From a virus: a DNA stretch of 28,946 nucleotides. Below the pieces are notes generated by a model. That model did no database searches. It was not told where the DNA came from and saw nothing but the letters and a program-made list of their open reading frames with translations. The stretch is taken from positions 1-28,946 of the IMG/VR virus record IMGVR_UViG_3300031851_000128. One strand, given 5' to 3'. The position numbers were made by a program, and so were the translations under genes. Shown one piece after another: positions 1-28,564 of the stretch; position 1 is the stretch's first letter, and every line of letters starts with the position of its first letter.

Positions 1-3000
1 TAATCTTTTGGTCATACCAATTTAAGTCTGTAACTAATTGTATACCAGCAGTATCATCTAAACGCTTATAATGAGTACGGTTAAGCATATCTTTGAACTG
101 GCTCCAACCATATTTGTTTACTGACTGTGTTTCTGCAAAATGTATTAATTCAATTACATCATTTTGTGCAACAGGAATATTAATTTTTACATATTTTTTA
201 TTATCTGTTACTTGGTACTGGATACTTGGTAATAATAATTGACCGTTTATAGTAATCCAAACATATTCAGCATCTATAGCCGGAGTAGGTAATTCAATAA
301 GACCAGCTGTTAAGTGATTAAACTTATACCAATCATCAGTATTAGGTGTAAGTGTAACTCTAGAAATTACATCTAGTTGCTGTCTTTCAAATCTTTGGCT
401 ATCATGATTACTAAATTGGTAAACTGTAAGTACATCATTTTCGTTATATGCACTGTCAAGGTATATAGTTCCTGGTGTGTCTACAAATTCTCCACCAGCA
501 TCAATATAACCAAATGCATATTGTCCATCATTTACAAGATAAACATCAAGGATGTCACCTGTACTATGTCCTACTGCTGTTTTAATTCTTACAATACTAC
601 TTCCTGCAGAACTAGACGCACCAGTAAATGTCCAATCTTGCAAGTATGTTAATTTCTTACCGTTAATAAAAACTTGTAAGCCTTTGTTGTTTACTGATCC
701 TGGCGGAATTTGGAAATTATCTAATTGATATTCTCTTGTTGCCGCTGCCATTGTAAACTTTTGTGTATATCCTGCATTTAAAATAATATCATTAACTTTT
801 ACTATAGTTTGCCACGGAACAGGTGTAGTAGTAAACGGTGTTGTATTTAATGCATAGGAAACTGTGCTACCGTCTAGTGTAAAGTTTTGTATGCCAACTT
901 CACTGTAGTTTTGGACGTCTCCACCTTCAAAGAATGCAAAGTTAATTACACTCCCTGCAGCAGGAGGTGTTGCAAATTTAATTAATGCATTTCCGCTAAT
1001 ACCATCTGGCTTACGACTTTTTACAACAACATTTTCTAATTTTTGTCCGTCAAGTGTAATTACTGATTGCAAATTATCAGCAAAACGTACATTCGTTAAG
1101 AATCTTGCTGTACTTCCGTCTGCTACAAAATTATCAATATCTATTATTTTTGTTCCGCTAACACCTAGTACTGCTAGATGTATTTTAGATCCAACTATTG
1201 GTGCAGTATTAAATGTAATAGTTTTAGCATTATAGTCTATTGTATATTCAGTGCTTGCAATTATAGCATAATTTATTTTTACAAATAAACTGTCTTGCTG
1301 TATTACTTCTGCTCCAAAATTAAACACAGTAGTTGTACCATCGCCAGTGTAGTTCCTACTTGTAATTTTACTACTTCCGTCTGACGGTCTTTCGTAAACT
1401 TTAATATCTAATGTATCAAGTACTTGTCCAGGAACTAACTCTTCAGGACCTGCACTTGTAGTTGGTGTTACAAATCCGTCACCGTCAATATTAATATCAG
1501 CTGCAGATATACCTGTTGCTGTACTGTAGTTTAGTGCGCCACCTTTTATAAGTGTATCATAACTGTTAGGTTCTGGTAAGTATGTTCCGTCACTAGTTGA
1601 TTTTCTAAATATAATTATATCAGTATTACTAATTGAAACAGCTTCTTCGTCAAATACTACTAAGTCTGTTGGAAGTGTACCATCGTCTGTTCTTGACCAA
1701 CCAGTTTGTCCTGCTCCTGTTATACTTTGTATAACTGCATTTGGATTAGTTGGTGCACTTGGATAGTTAGGATCATCAATTCTTACATTATTTTTATATA
1801 CATGATACTGTACTCCAGTTTCTAATACTTTAGCAAAAGTAAAAGTTGTTGTACTATCATCTAATTCAAAAATCTCATCTTCAAATGTTTCATCATATGA
1901 ATCCCAAGTATCTCCTCCACTATCAAATCCACGACCTTGTTCAAATTCAAAACTCTTAACTTCAACTCCGCCGTAATCTAAGCCAGTCATAAGTTGTTTT
2001 AAATCAGTTACATAATTGCCATTCTTAGGAATAAAGTTATTAATCCTATCCTGTGCTTGCATTATGTCACTTGATAGTTTATACTCAATTAAAATTGTTT
2101 CGTTTAACTTAGGTAAATTTACAAATAATATCTGTCCAAAATATCTATCATATCCTTTGCTAACATCAAGTTTGTTTGTAAAAGTATATTCACTGTCTAA
2201 TGCTTCTACATTGTTTACATAAACTTTTATATTTGACTTATCTAAATCCATTGGCCAACTTAGATCATATTCAAATTTACTTCCACTAGCAACAAATGTT
2301 TCTGATTTGTTTAAGTTTGTATAAACGTATGTTCCTGTTGTTCTATCAAATTTTACACTAGTATGTAATCCACGTACAGGACTATCACCAATTTGTATAC
2401 CGTATGTTGCTTTTTCACCTGTATCAGATATATTATCTAATGATTCAATTGTTGGAGCACTGTAGAATCCTGAACCTGCGTTAACTATTTTAACTCCAGT
2501 TACTTTACCGTTTGTTCCTATAGTTGTTTCTAATTCAACTCCAGAGCCGCCGCCTCCTGATACTTTAAGCACAGGTGGACTAAAATATCCACTTCCTTGA
2601 TTAACTACAGTTACTTTTACAACTTTATAACTGCTGTTGTCTAACCAATTTTTATTTGGATAAGTTTCAATATCTGCATTTGTGCCAACTAATGTATTAG
2701 ACTGTACTTTTACATTTTGTGGAACTATTTTTCCTTCTACTACACTATAAGATGCTGGTAAATCAAAGTCAGTAACTACTGTTTGTGTATTGTCAAGTCC
2801 TTCGTATGCACTTAGATATTCACGTATTTTTGTTCCAAAAGGTTTAACTTCTTTAATATATGCTTCATAGCTAGGAAGACTATCATTATTAAATGTAATA
2901 TCTTTTCTTAAACTTCCAACATTATGTTTTGCTTTTATAAAGCTAGTTTTAAATGCCCAGTCAATATAAGTCTGCTCACTAAATGCATAACGTAAACTAG

Positions 3001-6000
3001 CAAAGAATAATTCATTAAATTTAACTTGTAGATCATTAATGAATAAATTATCCTTAATAGTGTTTAATATTATTCTTAATTCAGTACGTGGTTCACTGTC
3101 AAAGATTTTAGTATCAAAACTAATAGTATCAAATCCGGTAAATGCTGCTTCTGAATCATATAACGTTTCGTTAAATTTAATTGTACCATTTTGTCTACCA
3201 ATTGTTTTGTAGTTGATTGTATAATCTTCAGTATCTTGGCTGTCTATTTTTTCAAGAAGTAACCAACCACCTGATCCAATATTACTGATTTTTACTACAT
3301 TACTAATACCAGCGTCTAACTGTGTAAGTTCGTAAGCATTGTCAATCAAATAATCTATGTCAGTAACTTCACTATATCCTGTTGCATACCAGTCTTTGTA
3401 GTCCCAAAATAGTTTTGTGTCATACGCTTGGCTTTTTACTCTATTCCAAGTTCTAGCAACTGTGTCTCTTTCGTATAATGCCCATTTACCTAAAATTGTG
3501 TTGTCGCTGGACACTAGTACAGTAAACGGTCTAACAGTTAATATAACATTATCAGAATAATTTTCGCCGCTTTCTAAAATAGTTACACTAGACACTTTTC
3601 CAAGTGCGTCAATTGTTGTTTGTAATACTGCACCAGAACCTAAACCTGTTACAGTAACTAGCGGAGCATTTCTATATCCTCTACCTGGGTCAGTAATTAA
3701 TACGTTTGTAATTTTACCATTAACAACCACTGGTGTAAGAACAGCCTGTGATGCTTTAGCAACTCCAACAAATCCTAGATCATCTAACGTGTCAATTTTT
3801 ACATCATATAAATTTGAAACTACTGTTGGTTCAGGATCATTCTTATTCAAAGAAGTAATAATTTTATCATCAACAATTAAGTTTTCTGATAGCACTAAGT
3901 TTGTACGTTCGATAAACTGTTTTAAAGCTTCGTATCTATTTTTAAACCAGCTTTGTCTTGGCTTGTTCAATGCGCCATATTTTTGTTTAGGACTTAGATA
4001 TGGATCTGGAACAATTCTGTCTTGTTCATCGTATCCACTTAAACTATCAAACCATTTACGTACAATATCGTTGTTAGGTTGACTTGTTTCTAATCCTTCA
4101 CTAATAATTTGATACTGGTTATGTATATTCTGTGTTTGGTTAGGTATTGTCCAGTACTGTGTACTAAGTGCAACCTCAGTGCCTTTAATATATTTTTCAG
4201 CATTGTAAAGTACAAATTGTGACGGACTTATAAGTGCAGCAAACGTATATCCTTTAGCAATAGGATCTTGTATATAATCTGCAATATCAAAAATACTAGT
4301 ATTTCTAAATTCTACATCCGGAACAGTCTTTTTATTCTTTACCCAGAAATAATAATTTGTTTTAAATATTTTTGCAACACCGTCGTATATTTTACGTGTA
4401 CTATATGTGGCATCGCCATATAAACTTGTTCCGCTAAATCCTTTTGCAAATCCATTTTCAGTATCAGCCTGAGCGTCCCATTCACTTGGAATTACTGGTG
4501 ATTGTACCCATTCATATACATCGATTATATTTCCTTGGAATATTTTACTCCAGTTCTGTGTGCTAAAAACGACATCGCCTTGATATGGGTTAAAGAATTT
4601 TGCATTTGTTAAATCCCACCATACTTCGCCTACATGTTTTTCGCCCCAACTGTTTGTAGGATCAATTACTTGACCTGTAGAAGATAAATCGTATAGTGCA
4701 GGGTCATAATAAGTTTTATATGTTAAATCTTGTTCAGCAATGCCTGCAACTTTACCTTGAATTGGATCAATATAATCTATATAAGTTAAAAGTTCATTGT
4801 CCTTTGTATTATACAAGAACATTTTTTTAATTTTGTTTAGGTCAACTGTTGGCTTGTCAGATCTATAAATTTGCCAAATGTTTTCATTTCTATTATTTTT
4901 AAAATCAATTACGTTGCCAAGTCTTGTGCCGTCAACTCTATTAGGCAATCCAACATAAAAATGATTGTTTCTAGCAAGTATATTATTACCAAAATAATTA
5001 ATGTTTGGATCTAATAATTCTGTACTAGGTATTTGAATAGTTTGTGCAAAGATTAAATCTTGTTTAACTTTTTCATAAACATAAACTACTCCAGCATTAT
5101 CATTAATTGTATTAAATGCTGTAAATCCTTGATCTAAAATAGTTTCTCCAGAGTCAAATATAGTTTTAGTTGCCATATCAGCATCTTTTGCAGAAACAAA
5201 TAGTTGATCGCCGTCAAAGTCTAATCGCCATCCAAATTTTTCACCTTGTTCATTGTTTGGACTTTTTAGTGTTTGAGCAATTTCAAATACACCATTAACT
5301 TGTTTGTAGATATAAATTATACCTTGATCAGCTTTATAATTATCGTTATACGGCGCACTTATTGCTATTACTGTGCCGTCATTTGAAAGAGCTAGTGCAT
5401 GTCCAAACCCTGATGTTATATCAGGAGCATCTATTTCTTGCGAACGTTCAAAGTGTCCATTGTTAGCTCTATATACAACAACTTTATTTGTACTATCGTT
5501 ATACATTGCATTAGTAATTAAAACTTCGCCCGAGTTTGCTACATCAAATTCGCTTCCAAAATCTACTAGGCCGGCTTGGTCTAATACTGTATTGCCGTCA
5601 CTTACACTTAGTCCTGTGCTGTTTGGAATATAACCTACATAGTCAACTAAATCATCTGTTGATGTCCAATCATTAGCATCAAATGCTCCTGGAGCAACGT
5701 TAGTTTTAGCAACATAAAGTACACCACCAACATATACAATGTCGTCTGTAAAATAATTTAAACTTTCGTCAAATGTGCCTTTAAACTTTTTATTCTTAGC
5801 ATAATCCCAATTGTATGCTATATTATTTTCTGTACCTTTTTTAATAAAATAAATTTTACCAGGTAAACTTGTAGTACCGTTGCCTGCAGCGCCGATCATA
5901 CCTCTATATAAATCATTATTTTTTGTAATTTTTATACTTGAACCTAATTTATAGTTAGTAGCCTTTTCAGGAACAGTGTAAGAACTAATTAAATCATATC

Positions 6001-9000
6001 GACCAAACGTTGTTTTACTATAGATAGCATAGATTCCCTCGTTAGTCAACCCACTAGCAGTACCTGTTATATCAGTTGGGATTTTATAAGTTTGTTCCCA
6101 TTCATTATTAATTGCACTAGGCGCATTTGCAGGACGAGGAATACCATTAACATTATCTTGTTGATAGAACCAATATTCTGCATCAGTTATATAATCAATT
6201 CCTGTAGGAACACTAAGATTGGTTGCATTTTGGAATACTAACATTTTACCAATATTATCAGCTGGTAGTCCTAAACTTACAAATTGTATTTGTCCAATTA
6301 TTCTATCTGCTTGATATGTTGGATTTGGATCGCCCGGTATTAATTTAAATTCAATTTCAGCATTTTGTCCGTAGTCGTCACCTTTTGACCACACACCTGT
6401 AACACTTTTTATAAAGATTGTTGCATTTAATCCGTCTCTTTGATAATATGTTACAACACCAGTTGCTCCAGTTGTTTTATCTTCTACACTTTGTCCAACT
6501 TTTGGTTCAAAAGGATTTCCAGATGCATCAAACTTTGTAAAGTCAAAATTAATGTATCCGTCCCATACATCATAAATCGTTTGCAATTTATTTGTAATTG
6601 TAGTTGTTAAATTTAATGCTGTAATATCTTTAATAATACCAGTTCCGTATTGAGGAAGTTGGTTAACATAAAAATTAATTGTATCACCTTGGTTAACTAT
6701 ATCAGTTACCGGCTTCGGAGCTCTAACTACATACAAGTCAGATAATATAGGACTGTTGTTGCCAAACGCTCCCGGTAATCCTTGACTACTTAATACTCGA
6801 ATATAACTATTAAACGTATTTTGACTATCTAATACTGCACTATCAAAATCTAAAATATTATAATAATATCTATTTGACGATTCACTAGGCCTAATTACAT
6901 CAGCAAATATAAGTCCTCTACCTTGATCTTTGTTAGTAGTTGCTGATGTTGGCGTATAAGACGGAGCAGTTATGTATAAAAATCCGCCTAGTTCAGTACT
7001 AGTATCTACGCTGTCAGTTGGTCCTTGCTTTTCGTATTGTCCAATAAAGTCACCATCATTTCTAAATAAACTATCTAAAGAATTAAATGAACCGTTTACA
7101 TCTTTTAAGTATATAACTAATTCAGCACCTTCATTGTACACATAGTCAACAGTACCTGATCCTGTTTCTGTTTGTACAATGTCGTTAAGTTCAACTAAGT
7201 TAGTTGATGAATTAACATACAAAATTACATCAATTTTCTTTTGTACAACATGTCCGGCATCTAAGTAGGCTTCTGTAATACTAGGAAAACTGCCAGCAAA
7301 TGGTGCTTGCTGTGCTAGTGCAGCTAAACTTTGATTAGAATATGTTATTGAATTCCATGCTAGTTTAACAGTGTCATTTAGTCCAATGCCTCTGTATATG
7401 TCTAAAGGAGCTCTAATAAGAATGTGATCAGTTACTACATTTTGGAATGCATATTGGTTAGTCACTGTATCAATTGCATAGTTACCTGTTAGTAACATTG
7501 GAATATCTACAGTGTTTAAATTTTCAACGTTAAGTTGATCAATTACATCTGTTACAGAATCAAAACTGTTGTATACTACATTTGCTACTTGAGGTTGTAT
7601 ATCTACCACCGAACGCCAAAGCTGTTGGTTAGAAGAAACTATTGATCCTTTTGGATACGGATCGGTTGCTACAAAACTACCTTCGTATTTTGTTTTTACA
7701 TTTGATGCATCAGGAGAACCTACTATAATAAAATCTCCATCTGGTGAAATATCAAGTCCTGCTCCAAAGCGTTCTAAATCGTTACCGTATTTTACTGGTT
7801 CTATTACTTGTGATTGAACAAAGTTTATACTATCAGATGCTCTAGTATAGATATAAACTTTCCCGTCATTTTCATCTGGAGCACCTACAACTAATGTAGT
7901 ATTACGACTGTCAACTGCCATTGAAGTAGCATATGATAAGTCTACAGCTGATGAATCTTTTTGCACTTTTAGTTGTTCAGTAAAATTATTTGTATTTTTG
8001 ATTACTGACCAATTTCCGTTAAAATTATCAATCCAATGTAGATCGCCTTCATCTAAGTTTTTCTGTAATACAGTATTAGCATCCGGAATTGATGCACTTC
8101 TTACTGAAAGGAATTTAGTAATATTTCCTTTGCACTCTGCAATTTCTTGAACAGCAGACGAAGTTACTAATGTAATTACATTCTTATCTACTTTTGATAC
8201 TATATAAAATTTATCTAAAGTAGTATTTCCAACATTTGACATTCCAATAACATCGTCTACAATAATATCTGTAACGTTTGTTGTTAATGTAATATTAAAT
8301 TCAGTGCTACCTGCTTCAATGCTTTCAACAATATAATCAGTGTCAACGTGTTTGTATACATTCCAATTAAGATTGTCATTGCCTACCCAAACATACTGGC
8401 CTCTTTTAATATCTGATATATTATAATCTGCAAGATTTCTATATGTTGTTGCAATACCTCTAACATCTGCTTGATTAACATATCCTGCATCTTTGATATA
8501 ACTTTTGTTTACGTTTAGTGCAGGGAATGGCTGATGGTTATAATTTTTTGTTTTCTGATATACTTCATATGGTAATATTCTATAAACTAAATCTGTTTCA
8601 TTGCCAGTAGTGCTATTAACTAATTCAATAGGCTGAGGGCTAAGTCTAAATTTACTTTCATCTAATAGTAATTCAAATTCTTCAAACCCTTCAGCAGCGC
8701 CATACTGACCATCTTTAATAGCCCACTCTTCATAAAATTCTAAACTATCTTTGTCAGCACTACTTAATACATCAAACAATTTAGTAAGTGCATTTTTAGT
8801 ACCTTTGTCTTGTAACATTCCTTGATAGAATTTATATTGACTTACATCATCATTAACAATGTTTTCTAAATACTGTCGTTTTTGGTAACCAATTAAATGC
8901 TGTGCTACTTTTTGTTGTTCTGTATCAAAGTTGTCACTATCTAAGTCATAAAAATCACTAAACTGATTTACTTTATAATCAAAGTTAGTATATAATCCAG

Positions 9001-12000
9001 CTTTAGGCTTATCATCTAAACGATGCCAATCTTGTGCATCAAAGTTTTCTTTACCTGAAAGTTTTTTAATTGCACTATAATAAAATTCTTTATACTTTAC
9101 AATATCTCCGACTGCATAATCTGTCCACTGTTGCCAGTTTGTTACAGTTGCATCGTCATAGACAAACCCAGGTATATTTAAACTACCGTCCCAATCCTGT
9201 GTTATATATCCAAGTACCTTTATTCGTTCTTGTCTATATCCTGGTTGAGTATCGTATATTATGTCTCCAAATACTGTTTTGTTATCTATCAGTAATACAT
9301 GTTCTTTTTGTATTAAGGGAAGTTTAATTGCAAAAATACCTTCAGCAGTATTTTTTGGAGTTAAAATAAATTCGTTAGGCGAACGCCCTACACTACTAAA
9401 TTCTTCTACTAAAGGAGTTCCGTCTGATTGTAATAACGTATAACCGTATTCGCCGCCAAATACATTAGCAACCATATTATATTGGCTTACAAATTTAATC
9501 TGTTTACTTGCCGGACTTAGTGTAATTACACTACCTTCACCCCATTTTTGTGTAGTCCAGAATAAAAACTCATTTACACTATGGCGCCAATCAGTTAATA
9601 TCTTTTCTTCACCTTCGTAATAATCAAATACAAAGCCTTGATCTTTTAAGTATTCTCCGTACCCTAATAAAAAGTCAACTACGTCTTGTATTTTTGCAAA
9701 TATTTTTCCATAGTCAGCAGTTAGAACAATATTTTTATTAAATTGCTTTCGAACAAATGCATCACGGCCACCTATAAGAGGTAAACTTGCAAGTTTAGCA
9801 AACTTAGTATTATCAAAAGAACCTGTACTTGTATGTGCTTCTTTTACTCTATAGTAAGATCCTTGATATTCAACGTTTGCTCCGGCTACATAATTTTTAT
9901 TAGAGTCCCATATTAAAAATGATTCACTTATTCCGCCTATATTAATACTTGGGTCTCGTTGTGTACTAACAGTTTGGTAATATGTAAACGATGATGCTTG
10001 GGTATCGTAACCTTTTACAACATAACCATCACTACGTCTTTCTATAATTACACCACTATAACTAACAATTTTAGTAGGTGAACTTGTGTTTAAAAATATT
10101 TTATAATTTTCAAAAGGAACAAATACATTACCTTGATTAGTTGGTGTTCTACTATCAAGAATTAACTTAAATTTTTCTTTATCAGTAAATCCTGAAAGTT
10201 TATACCCAAGCTGATTATTAATAGTAGTAATATTTTCTTTATACTCTTTATACAAATCTAATACACTTGTACTCATATAGTTAGATATGTAATTTACTAT
10301 ACCACTTGTATATACTTGTGTTGTATCTTCAGATGTATTTGGAAATACAATATCTTTAAGTTGAAAACGTTTTTGAGTTGGTTTATAAACAATTTCATTG
10401 GCAATATTTTTTACTTGATTTATTCTATCAAATCCTGTAGCAAACAACTGTGCTGGTTTATTAATTGCAAATGCTTTTACTATACTAAAAGGATATTGTG
10501 AACTTGAACGCCAGGCACTTTCTACAGGCGATCCGTCACCAAATATAAAACTTTGATCAATAAATGTTGGATCAAAGAATTTAACATATCCTGCATCTAA
10601 TGGTGATAAAAGATTACCATTACTGTCAGCAGGTATATGTCCTGTAAGACCAGGTCGCTTATAATTGTTTAAAACTTTAAATTTTTTGTTTGGTTCTCTT
10701 ACAACTCCGTCTTCAAGATCTTGCCATAGTAGCGTATTCTCTTTTGTGTAAGGAGCTGGTCCGTATTGTGTTTCCCACCAAGTAGGTTTAACACTAAAGC
10801 CTAGCATTTCCCAAGGATGAGTATGTGGACGATCAGTATCAAATGCTTGTTTATATACTTCTCTCCAAAAACCTGGAAGTAATACATCTTGTTTATTTTG
10901 ACTACCAGTATAATTAAATGTAAATCTATTAGTTCTTTCAAAGAAATTATGTAGTGTATAATCTTGATCAATAAACTTTGACCATGATATAAAATCGCCT
11001 AGTATAGTTTTATCAATGAAACTTTTAGTAACTCCGGTATTTCTAAAATCGCCGCCAACTAATGAATGTATATCAAACAATGTAGAATCATATGATACTT
11101 TAATGTTATTATAAATTCTTCTTTCTAATTCTAAAAGTATGTCATCTCTATAATCATTAAACGCAATTATTTTACTGCCATCGTGTCCTTGAATAACTTG
11201 TTGAGATTCTAAATATGTGTTGTCAGTATATTTTACAGGTTCGTATGCAGGATATAATCCTAATTTAGTTGGTGTTGGAGGAACATATGATCCATTAGTA
11301 GTTTCATATTCGTAAATATCAACAACATCATCTTGTTGTTTTGTAGCAGTAATTAACGCATACCCTTCTGAGTTAAACGTATAATCTTTGTTGTGTACTA
11401 ACTGTACACCGTTAATATAAATTTGTACTGCTTTTCTTGATGCACTTGTTAGCGAAAACATACTTGACAAAGGAAAATATAAATCATCAACATCATCTAT
11501 AATTCTAGTTGTCTTTTTTGTTGCACCAATTGGAACCATATCACTAAAGAAAAACGGTTGTGATTTAGTTTTATCTTTGTTTATATCTTGTAAGATTTTA
11601 TCCACATGATCTTTTATTGCACCTTGAAAACCTAAGTCTTCGGCTTTTTGTAAAAATAATCTTTTAAATACTGAATATTCTTTACTTGCATATTCTATAC
11701 TTTTTACAATATTACTATTGTTATCTGTTGAATGATATAATGGTAAATTTAGTGGTACACTGTGTTGTAAAAATCTACGACCTAAGGCAGTAACGTTTCC
11801 TACGTCTCTTAAATTGCTTACTCCTGGATAAACTCCGCTAAACTCATCGCTTTGTTCTACTATTGTAGAAACATGATCGTTTACTGCTCCAAGGGTAAAT
11901 TCTGTTAAATTTTCATTCTTTGGATTACGCTCTAATGCTACAGGAATTTCATAATATCCATTATCATTTTTTGTAGCTGCAGAACGAGTCTTAATTAATA

Positions 12001-14233
12001 TAACATCATCTAATACTAAAGTATTATTAAAGGTTACTTGTGCATTACCTTGTATGTTTGTATTAATAGTATAATCAACATCTTTAAATTGTAAAACATT
12101 ATTACGATATACTCTTACCCACAAATCTGTTAAAGAGCCACTGTTATCGTAAACATCAATTTCAAAATCATTTATTGTATTGTCATATATTACTTGCTGT
12201 ATAACAACTTGTTCACTATTTTCAGTAACTTTCTTCCAACCAGTTAATGTTTCAAATGCTGTTAAATCTAAATATTTTCTAAGAAATCCTGTATCTGTTG
12301 CTTTTGAAAATGCATTGTTGTCAGCTGTATAAGTTATTGTACCTTGAACTAGATTAAAATCAAATACAATGTCACCAACATTAGAAATTTTTCTATATGT
12401 AATTGGAATACCTATTTCACTATCAGCTGTTCCTGTACCTTGTTTATAACTAAAAATTTTATTTCCAGTAAATGTTGTAGACTCATACACAGATGTATCA
12501 GAATAACTATTACCGTTTTCATCAAATATATCAAACAACGGTGCTTGGTTAGCTGATGTTTTATCTTGTGTTCTCTTCCAACTGTTGTTAGTATAGTATA
12601 AAAGTTTACCTTTGTACGATGTTCCTGCACTAATTAGTACAACTTCGTTTTCAACCGGAGTGCTATCTGTTGTTTCAGTTAAATGAATCTGTCTATTAGT
12701 AGCAGCTCCTGAAGCAAAATTTATAAACTTTACATCAAATATTTTTCCAGTTACTAATGGGTCAGTATCAGCAGTAAAAAGTATACGCATACCATCTACT
12801 ATATCAACGCCGTCTATATTATATCCTGGGCTACCTTCGATTGTACTAAAAACATCAGTAGTAAAATCATCTACTAAGTCGACGTCTTTCTTTGACTTAG
12901 TTCCAAACTCATGTAATTTTAAATTTGGTTCAAACTCAATAATTGGACGTTTAGCTCTTGCTAATTGATTAATATCAATTGGTTGGTTATTTGCTTGTGC
13001 TGCTAATTCAATTACACTTTTATGGAACCATCTATTATATCTACTCCATAAGTTACCATCGTTACTTGCTCTGTTAATAACAAAGTAATCTTTGTCTTCA
13101 GGATATCCAATAGCTTTACTATAAGGTAATCTATCAAATCCTTGTGCATCAAATTCAACATCAATATCTTCAGTAAATGCTGTAGGAACATTTAAATCTG
13201 ATTCAGCAATAAGTTTAATCTTGTCGCCTACACCTTCTACATAAAATGATTCGTTAGCATATTTTACTGGTTCAACTTGTCCAGTAAACTCTACCTTCAT
13301 ACCATTTGACAATGATATGCCGTTACTACTTTTGTAAAATCTTTTTCCAACAACTTCGCTGTCAACATCAATAAATGTTGCTTCCGATATATCTTTAATA
13401 ATTATTGTTCCGGCAGCATTTAAATCATTAGCTGACATGTAATATAATGTATCTGGAGTATCTGCACCAAGTTGTAATGTGCTAACACCTTTTTCAAGTC
13501 CTTGTACACTAACGCCTTCGAGAACTAAAATACTGCTACTATCTAAATCAAAACCTTCGTCAAGTGTCTTTTTTGTTTTAATTGTAAATGGTAAGTTAGG
13601 AGTGTCAATATCAAACTTATATGTTACTCCTCTATATAAAGTTATTGTAGGATTTTGTGTTAATCCATCTGGAGAAAATACATATGCGTTGTTATCAATA
13701 TTATCAGCAGTACGTATAGTATATGTACTTTCAACATCTATAGTTGTTCCAGCAATACCAATTGTTTGCGGACCTAAAGGTAACCAATAATATTCTCTAA
13801 AATTTGTAAACTTATCCCAATCAATATGTGGGTTCCAAGCATAATATTCTTGTGCGTTTATTGTACTATGATTTTTATTAATTAGGTTAAAATTACCTAA
13901 TTGATTCATATAATCATTATAATCTTTATAAAATGTAACATTGCCAATATTATCTTTTACAACACTTGCAGGTTCTAATTGATAATTAGCCCTTTCTGCA
14001 GAAACATCACCTACATAACTATCAGAAGCTGTAAATGCTTTTGCTGTTTCTCTACCTATATACCCATTAAGTTTTTCAACAACGCCTGGTTGTATTAATT
14101 GATCAAGTGTACTATTTAAAAACTTTTTGTTAGCAGTAGTTCTAAAAAATCTAGGTAAAAAGGATTCGCTTCTACGTTTATTTTCGTCTCCATTTGGCAA
14201 TGGTTGATCTGTTTGATTATTGTCGTATGCCAT
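1..14233 (-). CDS. Giant virion structural protein, partial (C-terminus beyond left edge)
   Basis: The ATG at 14233-14231 overlaps the gp6 stop by one base (TAATG). I found no stop in this frame down to position 1 where I translated it, giving at least 4,743 codons. The N-terminus (FLPRFFRTTANKKFL near residue 25) and a Trp/Pro-rich block (PHTHPWEMLGF, residues about 1132-1163) resemble the giant structural protein that follows gene 6 in marine T4-like phages; this is from memory of the family. Visible modules: three carbohydrate-binding-like units (about 1436-1481, 1694-1738, 2813-2861); FG-GAP-like beta-propeller blades (about 2096-2181 and 2890-3105); GSGY/SPP repeats (about 3504-3548 and 3864-3931); and four tandem beta-sandwich units with GDGTTT-type motifs (about 4286-4678). 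It is probably a baseplate-periphery or fibre-like component that replaces several T4 wedge or fibre proteins. The exact role is inferred. No signal peptide or membrane segment was noticed. Confidence 0.85.
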   Translation of the reverse strand, partial: MAYDNNQTDQPLPNGDENKRRSESFLPRFFRTTANKKFLNSTLDQLIQPGVVEKLNGYIGRETAKAFTASDSYVGDVSAERANYQLEPASVVKDNIGNVTFYKDYNDYMNQLGNFNLINKNHSTINAQEYYAWNPHIDWDKFTNFREYYWLPLGPQTIGIAGTTIDVESTYTIRTADNIDNNAYVFSPDGLTQNPTITLYRGVTYKFDIDTPNLPFTIKTKKTLDEGFDLDSSSILVLEGVSVQGLEKGVSTLQLGADTPDTLYYMSANDLNAAGTIIIKDISEATFIDVDSEVVGKRFYKSSNGISLSNGMKVEFTGQVEPVKYANESFYVEGVGDKIKLIAESDLNVPTAFTEDIDVEFDAQGFDRLPYSKAIGYPEDKDYFVINRASNDGNLWSRYNRWFHKSVIELAAQANNQPIDINQLARAKRPIIEFEPNLKLHEFGTKSKKDVDLVDDFTTDVFSTIEGSPGYNIDGVDIVDGMRILFTADTDPLVTGKIFDVKFINFASGAATNRQIHLTETTDSTPVENEVVLISAGTSYKGKLLYYTNNSWKRTQDKTSANQAPLFDIFDENGNSYSDTSVYESTTFTGNKIFSYKQGTGTADSEIGIPITYRKISNVGDIVFDFNLVQGTITYTADNNAFSKATDTGFLRKYLDLTAFETLTGWKKVTENSEQVVIQQVIYDNTINDFEIDVYDNSGSLTDLWVRVYRNNVLQFKDVDYTINTNIQGNAQVTFNNTLVLDDVILIKTRSAATKNDNGYYEIPVALERNPKNENLTEFTLGAVNDHVSTIVEQSDEFSGVYPGVSNLRDVGNVTALGRRFLQHSVPLNLPLYHSTDNNSNIVKSIEYASKEYSVFKRLFLQKAEDLGFQGAIKDHVDKILQDINKDKTKSQPFFFSDMVPIGATKKTTRIIDDVDDLYFPLSSMFSLTSASRKAVQIYINGVQLVHNKDYTFNSEGYALITATKQQDDVVDIYEYETTNGSYVPPTPTKLGLYPAYEPVKYTDNTYLESQQVIQGHDGSKIIAFNDYRDDILLELERRIYNNIKVSYDSTLFDIHSLVGGDFRNTGVTKSFIDKTILGDFISWSKFIDQDYTLHNFFERTNRFTFNYTGSQNKQDVLLPGFWREVYKQAFDTDRPHTHPWEMLGFSVKPTWWETQYGPAPYTKENTLLWQDLEDGVVREPNKKFKVLNNYKRPGLTGHIPADSNGNLLSPLDAGYVKFFDPTFIDQSFIFGDGSPVESAWRSSSQYPFSIVKAFAINKPAQLFATGFDRINQVKNIANEIVYKPTQKRFQLKDIVFPNTSEDTTQVYTSGIVNYISNYMSTSVLDLYKEYKENITTINNQLGYKLSGFTDKEKFKLILDSRTPTNQGNVFVPFENYKIFLNTSSPTKIVSYSGVIIERRSDGYVVKGYDTQASSFTYYQTVSTQRDPSINIGGISESFLIWDSNKNYVAGANVEYQGSYYRVKEAHTSTGSFDNTKFAKLASLPLIGGRDAFVRKQFNKNIVLTADYGKIFAKIQDVVDFLLGYGEYLKDQGFVFDYYEGEEKILTDWRHSVNEFLFWTTQKWGEGSVITLSPASKQIKFVSQYNMVANVFGGEYGYTLLQSDGTPLVEEFSSVGRSPNEFILTPKNTAEGIFAIKLPLIQKEHVLLIDNKTVFGDIIYDTQPGYRQERIKVLGYITQDWDGSLNIPGFVYDDATVTNWQQWTDYAVGDIVKYKEFYYSAIKKLSGKENFDAQDWHRLDDKPKAGLYTNFDYKVNQFSDFYDLDSDNFDTEQQKVAQHLIGYQKRQYLENIVNDDVSQYKFYQGMLQDKGTKNALTKLFDVLSSADKDSLEFYEEWAIKDGQYGAAEGFEEFELLLDESKFRLSPQPIELVNSTTGNETDLVYRILPYEVYQKTKNYNHQPFPALNVNKSYIKDAGYVNQADVRGIATTYRNLADYNISDIKRGQYVWVGNDNLNWNVYKHVDTDYIVESIEAGSTEFNITLTTNVTDIIVDDVIGMSNVGNTTLDKFYIVSKVDKNVITLVTSSAVQEIAECKGNITKFLSVRSASIPDANTVLQKNLDEGDLHWIDNFNGNWSVIKNTNNFTEQLKVQKDSSAVDLSYATSMAVDSRNTTLVVGAPDENDGKVYIYTRASDSINFVQSQVIEPVKYGNDLERFGAGLDISPDGDFIIVGSPDASNVKTKYEGSFVATDPYPKGSIVSSNQQLWRSVVDIQPQVANVVYNSFDSVTDVIDQLNVENLNTVDIPMLLTGNYAIDTVTNQYAFQNVVTDHILIRAPLDIYRGIGLNDTVKLAWNSITYSNQSLAALAQQAPFAGSFPSITEAYLDAGHVVQKKIDVILYVNSSTNLVELNDIVQTETGSGTVDYVYNEGAELVIYLKDVNGSFNSLDSLFRNDGDFIGQYEKQGPTDSVDTSTELGGFLYITAPSYTPTSATTNKDQGRGLIFADVIRPSESSNRYYYNILDFDSAVLDSQNTFNSYIRVLSSQGLPGAFGNNSPILSDLYVVRAPKPVTDIVNQGDTINFYVNQLPQYGTGIIKDITALNLTTTITNKLQTIYDVWDGYINFDFTKFDASGNPFEPKVGQSVEDKTTGATGVVTYYQRDGLNATIFIKSVTGVWSKGDDYGQNAEIEFKLIPGDPNPTYQADRIIGQIQFVSLGLPADNIGKMLVFQNATNLSVPTGIDYITDAEYWFYQQDNVNGIPRPANAPSAINNEWEQTYKIPTDITGTASGLTNEGIYAIYSKTTFGRYDLISSYTVPEKATNYKLGSSIKITKNNDLYRGMIGAAGNGTTSLPGKIYFIKKGTENNIAYNWDYAKNKKFKGTFDESLNYFTDDIVYVGGVLYVAKTNVAPGAFDANDWTSTDDLVDYVGYIPNSTGLSVSDGNTVLDQAGLVDFGSEFDVANSGEVLITNAMYNDSTNKVVVYRANNGHFERSQEIDAPDITSGFGHALALSNDGTVIAISAPYNDNYKADQGIIYIYKQVNGVFEIAQTLKSPNNEQGEKFGWRLDFDGDQLFVSAKDADMATKTIFDSGETILDQGFTAFNTINDNAGVVYVYEKVKQDLIFAQTIQIPSTELLDPNINYFGNNILARNNHFYVGLPNRVDGTRLGNVIDFKNNRNENIWQIYRSDKPTVDLNKIKKMFLYNTKDNELLTYIDYIDPIQGKVAGIAEQDLTYKTYYDPALYDLSSTGQVIDPTNSWGEKHVGEVWWDLTNAKFFNPYQGDVVFSTQNWSKIFQGNIIDVYEWVQSPVIPSEWDAQADTENGFAKGFSGTSLYGDATYSTRKIYDGVAKIFKTNYYFWVKNKKTVPDVEFRNTSIFDIADYIQDPIAKGYTFAALISPSQFVLYNAEKYIKGTEVALSTQYWTIPNQTQNIHNQYQIISEGLETSQPNNDIVRKWFDSLSGYDEQDRIVPDPYLSPKQKYGALNKPRQSWFKNRYEALKQFIERTNLVLSENLIVDDKIITSLNKNDPEPTVVSNLYDVKIDTLDDLGFVGVAKASQAVLTPVVVNGKITNVLITDPGRGYRNAPLVTVTGLGSGAVLQTTIDALGKVSSVTILESGENYSDNVILTVRPFTVLVSSDNTILGKWALYERDTVARTWNRVKSQAYDTKLFWDYKDWYATGYSEVTDIDYLIDNAYELTQLDAGISNVVKISNIGSGGWLLLEKIDSQDTEDYTINYKTIGRQNGTIKFNETLYDSEAAFTGFDTISFDTKIFDSEPRTELRIILNTIKDNLFINDLQVKFNELFFASLRYAFSEQTYIDWAFKTSFIKAKHNVGSLRKDITFNNDSLPSYEAYIKEVKPFGTKIREYLSAYEGLDNTQTVVTDFDLPASYSVVEGKIVPQNVKVQSNTLVGTNADIETYPNKNWLDNSSYKVVKVTVVNQGSGYFSPPVLKVSGGGGSGVELETTIGTNGKVTGVKIVNAGSGFYSAPTIESLDNISDTGEKATYGIQIGDSPVRGLHTSVKFDRTTGTYVYTNLNKSETFVASGSKFEYDLSWPMDLDKSNIKVYVNNVEALDSEYTFTNKLDVSKGYDRYFGQILFVNLPKLNETILIEYKLSSDIMQAQDRINNFIPKNGNYVTDLKQLMTGLDYGGVEVKSFEFEQGRGFDSGGDTWDSYDETFEDEIFELDDSTTTFTFAKVLETGVQYHVYKNNVRIDDPNYPSAPTNPNAVIQSITGAGQTGWSRTDDGTLPTDLVVFDEEAVSISNTDIIIFRKSTSDGTYLPEPNSYDTLIKGGALNYSTATGISAADINIDGDGFVTPTTSAGPEELVPGQVLDTLDIKVYERPSDGSSKITSRNYTGDGTTTVFNFGAEVIQQDSLFVKINYAIIASTEYTIDYNAKTITFNTAPIVGSKIHLAVLGVSGTKIIDIDNFVADGSTARFLTNVRFADNLQSVITLDGQKLENVVVKSRKPDGISGNALIKFATPPAAGSVINFAFFEGGDVQNYSEVGIQNFTLDGSTVSYALNTTPFTTTPVPWQTIVKVNDIILNAGYTQKFTMAAATREYQLDNFQIPPGSVNNKGLQVFINGKKLTYLQDWTFTGASSSAGSSIVRIKTAVGHSTGDILDVYLVNDGQYAFGYIDAGGEFVDTPGTIYLDSAYNENDVLTVYQFSNHDSQRFERQQLDVISRVTLTPNTDDWYKFNHLTAGLIELPTPAIDAEYVWITINGQLLLPSIQYQVTDNKKYVKINIPVAQNDVIELIHFAETQSVNKYGWSQFKDMLNRTHYKRLDDTAGIQLVTDLNWYDQKI

Positions 14234-23899: not shown

Positions 23900-23907
23900 T
23901 ATTTAGT
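23900..23907 (-). promoter_or_regulatory. T4-like late promoter candidate for the baseplate operon
   Basis: On the minus strand this reads ACTAAATA, six of eight matches to TATAAATA, 23 bases before the ATG of the gp48-like gene. It is the best late-type element in the 79-base divergent gap. Its right end shares base 23907 with the -35 box of the opposite gp55 promoter, so both promoters cannot easily be occupied together. Confidence 0.5.
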
Positions 23908-23935
23908 TGACTTTATTAACAGAGTATATTATAAT
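23907..23935 (+). promoter_or_regulatory. Sigma-70 promoter for gp55
   Basis: TTGACT (23907-23912), a 17-base spacer and TATAAT (23930-23935) form a near-perfect host housekeeping promoter. Transcription would start near 23942, giving a leader of roughly 15 bases that contains the GGAGA ribosome site (23948-23952) before the gp55 ATG. This suggests early expression by unmodified host polymerase. Confidence 0.85.
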
Positions 23936-23956: not shown

Positions 23957-24796
23957 ATGAGAAAAGTAAACTATTTAAACAATAAAGACATTTTGAAAGA
24001 GATTCACAAGTCTAAAGGTACGTTTTGTAGCTTTGTAGACGACGAAGATCATCAATTTGATATAATTCTGCCTAGTATAGATAAGATAAACATTCGTACT
24101 ATAGCAGAAGCAAAACGAAACAAAGCTAAAAGACTACAAGTTACTGGGTTTGACGAAGCGAAACTAGCTGGACGTAAAGTAAAGCAAGCAGAGTTTGAAG
24201 TTGACTATAAAAAAATTACAAAAGAAGAGTTAATCTTTAGAATAATGACATTTGATCATATTCCAGACGAACCTGGAAGAAAAAAGACGCCAAAAACTGT
24301 GGCAGACACTAAAGTAAAACTTAACTTTCCTCCATTCCAACATTTTAAGTTTGACGATAGCGGAGAATTACAATGTGTAGGTAAAAGCCATTGGTCTGGT
24401 GGTATGGAAAACGGTAGTTTTAATCTAAAAGGCGGTAAAGCAACTAATAAACTTGCTATGATGTGGATGAAGTTATGTGATAGATACGCAACACGAGGCA
24501 ATGTACGTGGATATACGTATAATGACGAGATGCGAGGACAAGCAATACTACAATTAGCACAGATTGGCTTGCAATTTGACGAATCTAAGTCTGCTAACCC
24601 GTTTGCATACTACACTGCTGCTGTAACTAACAGTTTTGTACGTGTTATTAACATCGAAAAGCGTAATCAAAACATTCGAGACGATATTCTTGAAATGAAC
24701 GATATGAATCCTTCGTTTACTAGACAAAATGCAGGTGAATGGGACGCTCAGCAACGTAGAGAAAAAGAACTCCAAGCAAAACAGAATAACGCTTGA
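23957..24796 (+). CDS. gp55: Late transcription sigma factor gp55, N-terminally extended
   Basis: gp55 is the small phage sigma factor that directs host RNA polymerase to late promoters. The conserved core lies in about residues 140-265. It includes HWSGGMENGSFN, LAMMWMKLCDRYATRGNVRG, YTYNDEMRGQAILQLAQIGL, FDESKSANPFAYYTAAVTNS and VINIEKRNQNIRDDILEMN. These are sigma region-2-like helices, and the aromatic-rich segment is the expected place for promoter melting. The protein has 279 residues against 185 in T4. The extra length is N-terminal: a first unit (GTFCSFVDDEDHQFDIILPS, then IRTIAEAKRNKAKRLQ) and a basic linker (PGRKKTPK). The C-terminus is charged and lacks an obvious hydrophobic clamp-binding tail. 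It is divergent from the baseplate operon it should activate. The start has GGAGA just upstream. Confidence 0.9.
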   Translation: MRKVNYLNNKDILKEIHKSKGTFCSFVDDEDHQFDIILPSIDKINIRTIAEAKRNKAKRLQVTGFDEAKLAGRKVKQAEFEVDYKKITKEELIFRIMTFDHIPDEPGRKKTPKTVADTKVKLNFPPFQHFKFDDSGELQCVGKSHWSGGMENGSFNLKGGKATNKLAMMWMKLCDRYATRGNVRGYTYNDEMRGQAILQLAQIGLQFDESKSANPFAYYTAAVTNSFVRVINIEKRNQNIRDDILEMNDMNPSFTRQNAGEWDAQQRREKELQAKQNNA

Positions 24797-24821
24797 CTTT
24801 TAGTTTAATTGATCGTATAAT
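24793..24821 (+). promoter_or_regulatory. Sigma-70 promoter for gp47-gp46-hemC
   Basis: TTGACT (24793-24798), a 17-base spacer and TATAAT (24816-24821) have the same hexamers and spacing as the gp55 promoter. The -35 box contains the gp55 stop codon TGA (24794-24796). It would feed the recombination operon independently of read-through from gp55. Confidence 0.85.
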
Positions 24822-24851: not shown

Positions 24852-25862
24852 TTGTTTAAAAAAGCGGCTGTATTTACAGATATTCACTTTGGTCTAAAAG
24901 GCAATAGTAAGATACATAACCAAGACTGTGAAGATTTTATAGATTGGTACATAGAACAAGCAAAAGCTAACGGTTGTGAAACTGGAATCTTCTGTGGAGA
25001 CTGGCATCACAACAGAAATAGTTTAAATCTTACCACTATGGATGCTACTATTCGTAGTATGGAGAAACTAGGATCTGCATTTGAGAAGTTTTACTTCTTT
25101 GATGGTAACCATGACTTGTATTACAAAGATAAACGTGATGTGAATAGTACAGCGTTTGCAAAACATATTCCAGGTATTACATTTATTGACGAAATATATC
25201 AAGAAGATGATGTCGCACTAGTCCCATGGCTAGTAGGTGACGAATGGAAAAAGATAAAAAATATAAAAGCAAAATATTTGTTTGGGCATTTTGAACTACC
25301 TAGCTTTTATATGAACGCAATGGTACAAATGCCAGACCATGGTGAACTAAAAGCTGAACACTTTGAACATCAAGAGTACGTGTTTAGTGGACATTTTCAT
25401 AAAAGACAAAAACAAGGTAAAGTACACTACTTAGGTAATGCGTTTCCACACAACTATGCAGATGCATGGGATGACGAACGTGGTATGATGATACTTGACA
25501 AAGAAAATGACGCTGAGCCCATGTATATAAACTGGCCTGACTGTCCTAAGTACAGAACTGTTAAGCTAAGTCAACTAATTGACGAACAATCAACATTAAT
25601 AAAACCAAATATGTATCTAAGAGTTAACTTGGATTTACCTATTAGCTACGAAGAAGCAAGTTTTATTAAAGAAACTTTTATTAATAACTTCAATTGTCGA
25701 GAAATAAGTCTTATTCCGCAAAAACAACTTGAAGAAATTAGTACACAACTCGATATCCAACAATTTGAAAGTGTAGATCAAATTGTTGCTGGTGAAATTA
25801 ATGCAATTGACTCAGACAACTTTAATAAAAAGATGCTAATGGACATTTATAACGAACTATGA
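24852..25862 (+). CDS. gp47: Recombination endonuclease subunit gp47 (SbcD/Mre11-like)
   Basis: gp47 is the nuclease partner of gp46. Together they resect DNA ends for phage recombination-dependent replication and break repair, and help degrade host DNA. All metallophosphoesterase motifs are visible in order: FTDIHFG (DxH, residues 8-14), GDWHHNR (about 49-55), DGNHD (about 79-83), GHFELP (about 145) and SGHFHKRQ (about 177-184). The length (336) matches T4 gp47 (339). The start is TTG, supported by GGAGA. The stop overlaps the gp46 start (ATGA), implying coupled translation at similar levels. The C-terminal third is the capping and partner-binding region, without a recognisable motif. Confidence 0.96.
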   Translation: MFKKAAVFTDIHFGLKGNSKIHNQDCEDFIDWYIEQAKANGCETGIFCGDWHHNRNSLNLTTMDATIRSMEKLGSAFEKFYFFDGNHDLYYKDKRDVNSTAFAKHIPGITFIDEIYQEDDVALVPWLVGDEWKKIKNIKAKYLFGHFELPSFYMNAMVQMPDHGELKAEHFEHQEYVFSGHFHKRQKQGKVHYLGNAFPHNYADAWDDERGMMILDKENDAEPMYINWPDCPKYRTVKLSQLIDEQSTLIKPNMYLRVNLDLPISYEEASFIKETFINNFNCREISLIPQKQLEEISTQLDIQQFESVDQIVAGEINAIDSDNFNKKMLMDIYNEL

Positions 25863-27631
25863 TACAAATTAAAGATTTAACCGTAAAAAACTTTATGAGT
25901 GTGGGCAATCAGACTCAGGCTGTTGACTTTAACAGAGAAAATCTTACACTTGTACTAGGTGAAAACTTAGATCAAGGCGGAGATGACAGTGGTTCACGTA
26001 ATGGTACAGGTAAAACTACTATCATTAATGCACTTAGCTACGCATTATACGGAAAAGCCCTTACAAACATTAGAGCAAACAACTTAATTAATAAAACTAA
26101 CAGCAAAGGCATGTTGGTTACACTTCACTTTGAAAAGAATGGTGTTGATTATAGGATTGAGCGTGGGCGTTCTCCTAATGTACTCAAGTTCTTTATTAAC
26201 AATCAAGAACAAGAACTTGTAGACGAATCGCAGGGCGACAGTCGACAGACTCAAAAAGATATTGATGGTTTACTTGATATGAGTCATGATATGTTTAAAC
26301 ATATTGTTGCACTAAACACCTACACAGAACCATTCCTAAGCATGCGGCAAAACGATCAACGTGCTATCATTGAACAGTTGTTAGGTATTACTATCCTAAG
26401 TGAGAAAGCTGATGCTTTAAAAGAGCAAACACGCATTACTAAGGAAGCCATAACTACTGAAACATTAAAAATTGAAGCAATACAAACAGCAAACAGTAAA
26501 ATTGAAAGTACTATTAGTAGTTTACAAGGTACGCAACGAGCTTGGCTTGCTAAAAAACAACAAGACGTAAACAAATTAGCATCTGCTATCGACGAATTAG
26601 AGCATTTAGACATTGATGTAGAACTAGAGTCGCATGAAAAATTGCAAAATTGGAATGAACATAACAGTGCTATTTTGGCTCTTAAAAAAGAACTAAGCAC
26701 ATTAGAGCCAGCACTACAACGTGCAGACAAGAGTGTTGAAAAGGTCAATAAAGATGTCGCAAATTTAGAAGATGCTACATGTTATACGTGTGGACAAGAG
26801 CTACATGCAGACAAAAAAGCAGAAATTGCAGAACGCAAGTCAAAAGAACTTGAAGATGCTATGTCATATCAAACAGAAGTTAGTGATAAACTTATTGATG
26901 TTACAAAGGCACTTGCAGAGATTGGTGACATCAACGGTAAGCCTAATGTATTTTATGAAACTGCTAAAGAAGCGTATGAGCATAGACAGAATGTAGACAG
27001 TTTAAAACAATCTCTTACATCAAAACAAGAAGAAGCTGATCCTTATCAGGCACAAATTGATGAATTGAATCACACTGCTATGCAGGAAATTGACTGGTCT
27101 CCAGTGAATGACCTTACAAGTTATAAAGAACATCAAGACTTCTTATTAAAGTTACTAACTAACAAAGATAGCTTTATTCGCAAGAAGATTATTGATCAAA
27201 ACTTAGCGTATCTTAACAATAGGCTTACATACTATCTTGATAAACTAGGATTACCACATAGTGTTGTATTCCAAAACGATTTGAATGTTGAAATTACACA
27301 ACTAGGACAAGACTTAGACTTTGATAACCTGTCAAGAGGCGAGCGTAACAGACTTATACTTGGTATGAGCTTTGCATTCCGTGATGTTTGGGAAAGTCTG
27401 TATCAAAAAATTAACTTATTGTTTATCGATGAACTTATTGATAGTGGTATGGACACAGCAGGAGTTGAAGGATCGCTTGCTGTTCTTAAAAAGATGGGTA
27501 GAGACGGAGACAAGAACGTTTTCCTTATCTCACACAAAGATGAACTTATAGGAAGGGTCAATTATGTAATGAAGGTTGTGAAAGAAAACGGATTTACATC
27601 ATATGAGAATGATATTGACATTGTAGAATGA
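25859..27631 (+). CDS. gp46: Recombination ATPase subunit gp46 (SbcC/Rad50-like)
   Basis: gp46 is the ABC-type ATPase that clamps DNA and controls the gp47 nuclease. Walker A is GSRNGTGKTT at residues 45-54. The central region (about 180-430) is charged and heptad-like, as expected for the antiparallel coiled coil. A zinc hook CYTC (Cys308 and Cys311) lies at its apex. The ABC signature is LSRGE at 491-495 (Arg in place of the common Gly), and Walker B is LLFIDE at 520-525, followed by the D-loop DSGMD. A late His (ISHKDE) could be the switch histidine. The 590 residues compare with 560 in T4. It has ATGA overlaps with both gp47 and hemC and no clear ribosome site of its own, so it is probably translated by re-initiation. 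Confidence 0.97.
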   Translation: MIQIKDLTVKNFMSVGNQTQAVDFNRENLTLVLGENLDQGGDDSGSRNGTGKTTIINALSYALYGKALTNIRANNLINKTNSKGMLVTLHFEKNGVDYRIERGRSPNVLKFFINNQEQELVDESQGDSRQTQKDIDGLLDMSHDMFKHIVALNTYTEPFLSMRQNDQRAIIEQLLGITILSEKADALKEQTRITKEAITTETLKIEAIQTANSKIESTISSLQGTQRAWLAKKQQDVNKLASAIDELEHLDIDVELESHEKLQNWNEHNSAILALKKELSTLEPALQRADKSVEKVNKDVANLEDATCYTCGQELHADKKAEIAERKSKELEDAMSYQTEVSDKLIDVTKALAEIGDINGKPNVFYETAKEAYEHRQNVDSLKQSLTSKQEEADPYQAQIDELNHTAMQEIDWSPVNDLTSYKEHQDFLLKLLTNKDSFIRKKIIDQNLAYLNNRLTYYLDKLGLPHSVVFQNDLNVEITQLGQDLDFDNLSRGERNRLILGMSFAFRDVWESLYQKINLLFIDELIDSGMDTAGVEGSLAVLKKMGRDGDKNVFLISHKDELIGRVNYVMKVVKENGFTSYENDIDIVE

Positions 27632-28371
27632 AACTAAAAGTTGGAACAAGAGGAAGTAAACTAGCACTTGCATACGCTGAACGTGTATGCAGTGAAATTT
27701 CTCACGAAACAGAAATAGTTATAATAAAAACAGATGGCGATCTAAACAACAATGCTCCAATACACGAAATTGGTGGCAAAGGTGTGTTCTGTACTGCTAT
27801 TGAAAACGAATTATTAGAAGAAAACATTGATATTGCTGTGCATAGTCTTAAAGACATGCCTGGAGAAGAACATCCGGATTTAATTATTGCTTCAATGTTA
27901 AAACGTAACAGTCCTCATGATGTAATTGTTGGTAGCGTAGGATACGGATGTACTATTGGCACTAGTAGTCCTAGACGAACTGCTCAATTAAAAGAATTAT
28001 ACGACAACTTAGACATAAAAATTAAACCTATTAGAGGCAACATTGATACTAGGTTAGAAAAACTTGACAATAAAGAATATGATGCTATAGTATTAGCTGA
28101 AGCTGGCCTTAAAGCATTGGACATTAGACGTACTTGGATCAAGATTCCAACTATTCCGGCAGTTGGTCAAGGAATAATTGCAATACAAACTAGAAAGAAT
28201 GATGTTGATACTATTGATATAGTTAAAAAAGTAAATGATAAGAAAACCTTTGCCCAAGCGCAAGTTGAACGTGCATTTTTAAAAGGCATGGGTGGTAATT
28301 GTCATACAAAACTTGCAGCTCATGCTACTGGAAGTAATCCTATTACGCTAAAGGCAATGTATTATGATTGA
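27628..28371 (+). CDS. hemC: Porphobilinogen deaminase (hydroxymethylbilane synthase), short form
   Basis: HemC joins four porphobilinogen molecules into hydroxymethylbilane, the linear precursor of haem and other tetrapyrroles, in the cytoplasm. The family motifs are intact: GTRGSKLALA (6-15), EIGGKGVFCTAIE (47-59), HSLKDMP with the catalytic Asp76 (72-78), GTSSPRRTAQL with Arg116/117, IRGNIDTRLEKL with Arg136 and Arg142, and IPAVGQG. The Cys that carries the dipyrromethane cofactor is present (GGNCH, Cys225). The protein is 247 residues, whereas bacterial enzymes are about 310. It stops some 22 residues after the cofactor Cys, so most of domain 3 is missing. It overlaps gp46 by ATGA and the next gene by eight bases. 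Codon and base use look like its phage neighbours. It is a probable auxiliary metabolic gene; activity is unproven. Confidence 0.93.
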   Translation: MKLKVGTRGSKLALAYAERVCSEISHETEIVIIKTDGDLNNNAPIHEIGGKGVFCTAIENELLEENIDIAVHSLKDMPGEEHPDLIIASMLKRNSPHDVIVGSVGYGCTIGTSSPRRTAQLKELYDNLDIKIKPIRGNIDTRLEKLDNKEYDAIVLAEAGLKALDIRRTWIKIPTIPAVGQGIIAIQTRKNDVDTIDIVKKVNDKKTFAQAQVERAFLKGMGGNCHTKLAAHATGSNPITLKAMYYD

Positions 28372-28564
28372 AGACGACATCCATGATAAGCTAACGAAAG
28401 CATATATAGAATATTTTAAAGCAAACGAAGCATTTGAATCAAGAGTTTCGTTTAGAACACATGCAGCCAGCAGAAGATGGCTAAGAGAAATACGAAAATT
28501 AAGTAAAATTCGAGGCGATGAAATACATACAAAGTTCAAAGCCAAACGAGAAGGCAAAAAATAA
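28364..28564 (+). CDS. Small basic hypothetical protein
   Basis: This 66-residue protein is lysine- and arginine-rich, with an apparently all-helical pattern (IHDKLTKAYIEYFKANEAF, then RRWLREIRKLSKIRG) and a basic tail (KFKAKREGKK). I do not recognise a family with certainty. Small helical proteins of this kind occur beside gp46/gp47 in marine T4-like phages, from general memory. The ATG lies inside the hemC end (eight-base overlap), with an AAAGG ribosome-site-like run about nine bases upstream, so it belongs to the same operon. Charge suggests nucleic-acid contact; that is inference only. A reading frame on the opposite strand here overlaps it and lacks context. Confidence 0.7.
   Translation: MIEDDIHDKLTKAYIEYFKANEAFESRVSFRTHAASRRWLREIRKLSKIRGDEIHTKFKAKREGKK

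Follow-up and report, generated by a model that had tools for sequence, protein, structure and literature searches.

Phage genes for tetrapyrrole metabolism have been discussed mainly singly, at either the start of the pathway (ALA synthase) or its end (ferrochelatase, heme oxygenase, and bilin reductases). In 2024, ALA synthase and heme oxygenase from phages were shown to be active (PMC11480375), in a paper whose main text does not name hemC or hemF, and ferrochelatases have been described in pelagiphages (PMC9599517, 2022). Porphobilinogen deaminase itself is named, together with coproporphyrinogen oxidase, in one sentence on a 'deep' pelagimyophage (PMC7029224, 2020). We found no report of hemC, hemE, hemF, and hemB as a phage gene set in open-licence papers, preprints aside, and the wider phage haem gene set appears to be under-described.

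The stretch of DNA analysed here (the window) is a virus record of 28,946 bases that contains hemC, coding for a 247-residue hydroxymethylbilane synthase (HMBS) with a short C-terminal domain (coordinates 27628–28371, + strand). We conclude, with a probability of roughly two in three, that this is a working auxiliary metabolic gene that keeps tetrapyrrole/haem flux going in an infected cell, which is probably SAR11-like. The window shares porphobilinogen deaminase with the pelagimyophages of PMC7029224, T4-like phages of the sea that are regarded as infecting SAR11, but that text describes no gp46 slot, no short form of the enzyme, and no accompanying hemE, hemB, or alaS. Some of the hemC contigs described below share ALA synthase, heme oxygenase, and bilin reductase with the valaS cassettes (PMC11480375), but differ in also encoding the middle steps HemB, HemC, HemE, and HemF, the window itself having only hemC. 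The HTVC023P-type pelagiphages (PMC9599517) likewise provide a haem-pathway enzyme in SAR11 phages, but they are podoviruses, and their ferrochelatases act at the last step of the pathway, are located beside 2OG-Fe(II) oxygenases, and are found in none of the 24 records considered here.

The hemC gene lies at the end of a run of overlapping genes. It is preceded by gp47 (24852–25862, +), which encodes an SbcD-like nuclease subunit and has a TTG start (phrog_100 at 2.1e-66), and gp46 (25859–27631, +), coding for the SbcC-like subunit (phrog_77 at 3.8e-99), and is followed by orf66 (28364–28564, +), a small ORF that closes the cargo slot. A preliminary description of this DNA reported that hemC is joined to gp46 by an ATGA overlap, and this is confirmed, with the hemC start codon at 27628 overlapping the gp46 stop codon; a second ATGA overlap at 25859 connects gp47 and gp46, and the hemC stop codon overlaps orf66 by 8 nt. 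These overlaps recur in most gp46-linked relatives. In front of gp47 there is a sigma-70-type promoter (TTGACT-17-TATAAT; 24793–24821, +) with 11/12 matches, and a score of 11–12 of 12 is reached in 61 of the 67 distinct upstream regions of relatives compared with 0.2% of mononucleotide shuffles, such that the signal exceeds chance. Directly before hemC no comparable promoter is present, the best match scoring 8 of 12, and the conservation of the gp47 promoter together with this lack supports reading the genes as an operon. The claim that hemC shares the gp47 promoter thus holds, and by all sequence signs hemC is cotranscribed with gp47 and gp46; from the promoter alone, we infer that it would be expressed early. 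Upstream of the gp47/gp46 pair is a late-sigma-like gene (23957–24796), itself preceded by a second TTGACT-17-TATAAT sequence at 23907–23935 (+). The T4-type late promoter TATAAATA was considered as a timing marker and is unusable, there being one match in the window where 6.8 are expected. At the other end of the window, one open frame (2–14233, −) of at least 4,744 residues is located beside the baseplate genes, and is 4,960 residues long in the related record G001.

Relatives of this phage carry further genes of the pathway. The hemE (URO-D, 2.7e-65) and hemF (3.6e-84) genes, found at 20 and 41 loci respectively in our scans, are located either between gp46 and hemC or in a free-standing operon, and usually overlap. 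The gene orders observed are hemE-hemC, hemE-hemF-hemC, and hemF-hemC-hemE-hemB, the last of these in a lineage (L229–L242) in which hemF-hemC-hemE is followed by a HemB ORF (ALAD, 4.9e-50 in L230). When viral loci were searched by tblastn with E. coli proteins, HemB identified a 283-aa ORF, and HemA, HemH, and HemD gave no match. Among 24 phage records, ALA synthase is present in nine (TIGR01821, 548–578 bits with a cut-off of 339) and heme oxygenase in five, each with a bilin reductase nearby (tblastn; confirmed by PF05996 in three of three tested); the records were found via hemC, hemE, hemF, or gp46, and such counts are not frequencies in nature. HemD and ferrochelatase were found in none of the 24, and the host must therefore supply both.

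The sets range from hemC only (the window, G001–G004, and G140) through hemE with hemC (G141), hemE-hemF-hemC (G150), the same trio with hemO and a bilin reductase (G147, G148) or with alaS (G146, G149, G151, G158), alaS with hemF and hemC (G153), alaS with hemC, hemE, hemO, and a bilin reductase (G157), these five plus hemF (G145), and alaS with hemB, hemC, hemE, and hemF (G152), to all seven genes (alaS, hemB, hemC, hemE, hemF, hemO, and bilin reductase) in the 107 kb record G144, where the tetrapyrrole loci are at coordinates 50001–58000 (L381) and 80001–100000 (L363). In the window's lineage hemC is the one tetrapyrrole gene found: HemF was detected in none of 18 hemC-bearing records, most of them belonging to this lineage, and ALA synthase, heme oxygenase, and bilin reductase are lacking from the window and the sequenced parts of its lineage but present in other hemC phages (e.g. 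G144, G145, and G157). The records are mostly fragments, and these absences are therefore soft.

Several other genes in these phages deserve mention. Near hemF-hemC, one locus (L220:4731–5762) codes for a HemE of another, bacterial type (343 aa, 380 bits to URO-D), which suggests that hemE was acquired a second time. L160 encodes a copper protein of the plastocyanin/azurin type (6743–7174, −) and a DoxX protein (6333–6743, −), which are also encoded in G149 and G153 and hint at electron-transport cargo in hemC-bearing phages. In G001 a run of metabolic-looking genes at about 41–75 kb (L056 and L057) codes for radical-SAM proteins, a fatty acid desaturase, and a fatty acid hydroxylase.

The haem route proceeds in the order AlaS, HemB, HemC, HemD, HemE, HemF, protoporphyrinogen oxidase, and ferrochelatase. 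The presence of hemE, hemF, hemB, and ALA synthase alongside hemC in relatives makes tetrapyrrole/haem supply the best-supported role of the gene; the earlier proposal that the phage boosts haem or a related tetrapyrrole stands to this extent, with haem the presumed end product. In the scheme that we favour, transcription of hemC would start at the sigma-70 promoter of gp47, and HemC would join four porphobilinogen units to give hydroxymethylbilane. The ring would then be closed by host HemD, and host enzymes, assisted in related phages by phage HemE and HemF, would carry the product towards haem, such that the infected cell would maintain its haem supply, most likely to sustain respiration. 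This scheme presumes that the enzyme is active and made at the assumed time, that the window's lineage has haem as its end product, and that the host is SAR11-like. HMBS is known as a slow enzyme, and it is thus plausible, if unproven, that hemC alone lifts one step in the window's lineage; a single enzyme may do little on its own unless the HMBS step is limiting.

Phage HemC and its partners could instead feed a route known from oceanic phages, in which a phage heme oxygenase is followed by a ferredoxin-dependent bilin reductase and the end product is a linear bilin. The five records in which heme oxygenase and bilin reductase are adjacent, and the union of all seven genes on the single contig G144, are consistent with such a route. 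However, heme oxygenase is absent from window-lineage records of 77–201 kb (G001, 106 kb; G002, 77 kb; and G140–G143), most of which are fragments, and in several sets that include alaS or hemE-hemF-hemC no hemO is present in what has been sequenced; we consider a bilin end product unlikely.

The case for haem supply is joined by that for a functional enzyme. The product of the 27628–28371 ORF matches PF01379 (Porphobil_deam) at 2e-64, together with part of the C-terminal model PF03900, and scores 262 bits with the NCBIfam equivalog TIGR00212 (cut-off 164); no PHROGs v4 family was found for it at E <= 0.001. An alignment of 38 phage representatives and 80 bacterial sequences, E. coli HemC among them, bears out the preliminary description of intact catalytic motifs, as residues R11, S13, K59, K83, D84, S129, R131, R132, R149, R155, R232, and C242 (E. 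coli numbering) are invariant in the phage representatives. Codons 27850–27855 (+) specify K75-D76 (E. coli K83-D84, including the catalytic aspartate), and codon 28300–28302 (+) specifies C225, which corresponds to E. coli C242, the cysteine holding the dipyrromethane cofactor; these residues are invariant in all 38 phage and 80 bacterial rows. An AlphaFold2 model of the window HemC has a pLDDT of 93.3 and a pTM of 0.89, being good for domains 1 and 2 and for the cofactor-bearing portion of domain 3, and its top PDB matches are all HMBS (1pda, 6e-24; 1ah5, rmsd 1.7 Å and 36% identity). Values of dN/dS (NG86) for hemC have a median of 0.171 and a maximum of 0.327 over 1,371 pairs, and are 0.115 for hemE and 0.089 for hemF. 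By this measure phage hemC is under strong purifying selection, and the relaxed selection raised earlier as an argument against the gene, with a ratio near 1, did not occur.

The phage enzymes are nonetheless unusual at the C-terminus. The window HemC ends after the cofactor cysteine, at a position matching residue 265 of the 313 in the E. coli enzyme. It and most phage copies lack about 50 C-terminal residues, which follow the cofactor loop and complete domain 3, and which every bacterial form examined possesses. Among 135 closed viral copies, some of which are from loci on the same contig, 118 are 245–254 aa long, 16 are 273–278 aa long, and one is frame-broken, compared with 292–319 aa in the bacterial set, three fusions or long frames excepted. 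The first branch within the phage clade consists of the longer copies (L209, L229, and L234), and the trimming is thus most simply placed within phages, after acquisition of the gene. One hemC copy (L046:2104–2643) has a broken frame and one alaS copy (G151:19207–20412) has an internal TGA, each reflecting either sequencing error or decay.

Truncation of domain 3 could in principle have cost the enzyme its activity, leaving HemC inactive or kept for another task. The residues missing from most phage copies would fit such a loss, as would the position of E. coli R176, which is A, T, or E in the 38 phage sequences and R in 66/66 other bacteria. In 14 SAR11 sequences, however, this position is S, T, or M, and the host enzymes of SAR11 thus also lack R176, the loss of which is a derived trait common to phage and SAR11 HemC. 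The invariance of the active-site and cofactor residues, the strong purifying selection, and the co-occurrence of other haem genes also argue against an inactive protein, which we regard as improbable. Phage HemC is probably active.

Diversion of the flux to siroheme or cobalamin rather than haem is very improbable. Hydroxymethylbilane precedes these products as well, and radical-SAM proteins are encoded in some relatives, one of them with a weak, sub-cut-off match to a B12-binding domain. HemE and HemF act after the point at which the routes to siroheme and cobalamin branch off, however, and their presence in relatives therefore favours haem, or bilins where hemO is present.

The position of hemC behind gp46 is one of several states of a cargo slot, as seen in the 80 gp46 genes closest to that of the window (84–100% identity, of 566 relatives), in all of which orf66 follows either gp46 or the cargo. 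The slot contains hemC in 40 of these 80 (hemC alone in 37, with hemE in two, and with hemE and hemF in one), is empty in 37, where gp46 leads straight into orf66, and is occupied by a sufE-type gene in three (L332, L334, and L341, the last confirmed with PF02657). In L032–L034 a small TMEM65-like protein is encoded ahead of hemC. Another sufE-type gene is at L179:9442–9834, and L160 and L185 code for NifU-like proteins, further Fe-S cofactor-assembly genes in the slot or near hemC. The window-type HemC clade is also represented at other genome positions (L159, L160, L165, L179, L195, L198, and L208). The link to gp46 is therefore positional: as cargo in this slot hemC gains a promoter and translational coupling, and its place there does not signal a task common with recombination. 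The functional pairing of hemC with gp46/gp47 that was suggested initially is not upheld; a role in recombination or DNA metabolism has adjacency, the ATGA overlap, and the common promoter in its favour, but is strongly disfavoured by the empty and sufE-containing slots and by the members of the HemC clade located away from gp46.

Scans of IMG/VR identified 48, and later 149, stretches encoding HemC relatives. In a 118-row tree the 38 phage representatives form a single phage-only clade (99*), with 14 SAR11 sequences (99*) as its sister and the two joined at 99*, such that phage HemC is placed beside, and outside, the SAR11 group. SAR11 is also nearest to the window HemC among 115 alphaproteobacterial genomes (51%, 1e-57; the next match is at 6e-47); genome contigs searched with the single window protein yielded no relative, and searched with alignment A2 gave best matches to SAR11. 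The SAR11 (Pelagibacterales) enzyme is like the phage form in its fold, catalytic aspartate, substrate-binding arginines, cofactor cysteine, and loss of R176, but is about 303–306 aa long, whereas phage forms are mostly 245–256 aa and lack the end of domain 3. These placements suggest that the gene left the SAR11 line in an ancient transfer, and SAR11-like hosts are likely rather than certain, as phage HemE (32–36%) and HemF (46–50%) are less like those of SAR11. Five SAR11 genomes (G019–G023), which may be incomplete, have no match to the phage ALA synthase, and only partial matches, below the cut-off, to glutamyl-tRNA reductase.

The gp46 and baseplate wedge proteins of the window phage resemble those of the large myoviruses PA5oct, Phosso, Atu_ph07, and SCTP-2, and gp23 of the related contig L162 resembles those of Vibrio phage 2.275.O, Phosso, and PA5oct; cultured SAR11 phages are not among the best matches listed. 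The INPHARED 'phages' collection was set aside as a source of relatives, its hemC, hemE, and hemF matches being few and distant, and those annotated or inspected looking like host DNA filed under phage labels. Although such matches could suggest that hemC here is contaminating host sequence, the recurrence of the gp46-hemC-orf66 junction in dozens of contigs and the phage-only clade refute this, and the tree gave none of the host placement envisaged earlier as a sign of contamination. The hemC gene is real and phage-owned.

A broader proposal, to which we give an even chance, is that a group of uncultured marine phages encodes AlaS, HemB, HemC, HemE, and HemF, and thus most of the steps from glycine and succinyl-CoA to protoporphyrinogen IX, some of them together with HemO and a bilin reductase, leaving HemD, protoporphyrinogen oxidase, and ferrochelatase to the host; the hemC of the window would be the set at its most reduced, and the short C-terminus of the product a phage-specific trimming of HMBS. 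If so, the middle steps, encoded in operons on contigs with the ends of the pathway, would mean that some marine phages, perhaps those of SAR11, run most of haem synthesis, raising the question of whether it is bilins or haem, the latter for respiration, that the infected cell needs. The short HemC would also be a natural experiment on the role of the end of HMBS domain 3. Together, these gene sets suggest that the phages take over the haem metabolism of the bacteria they infect.
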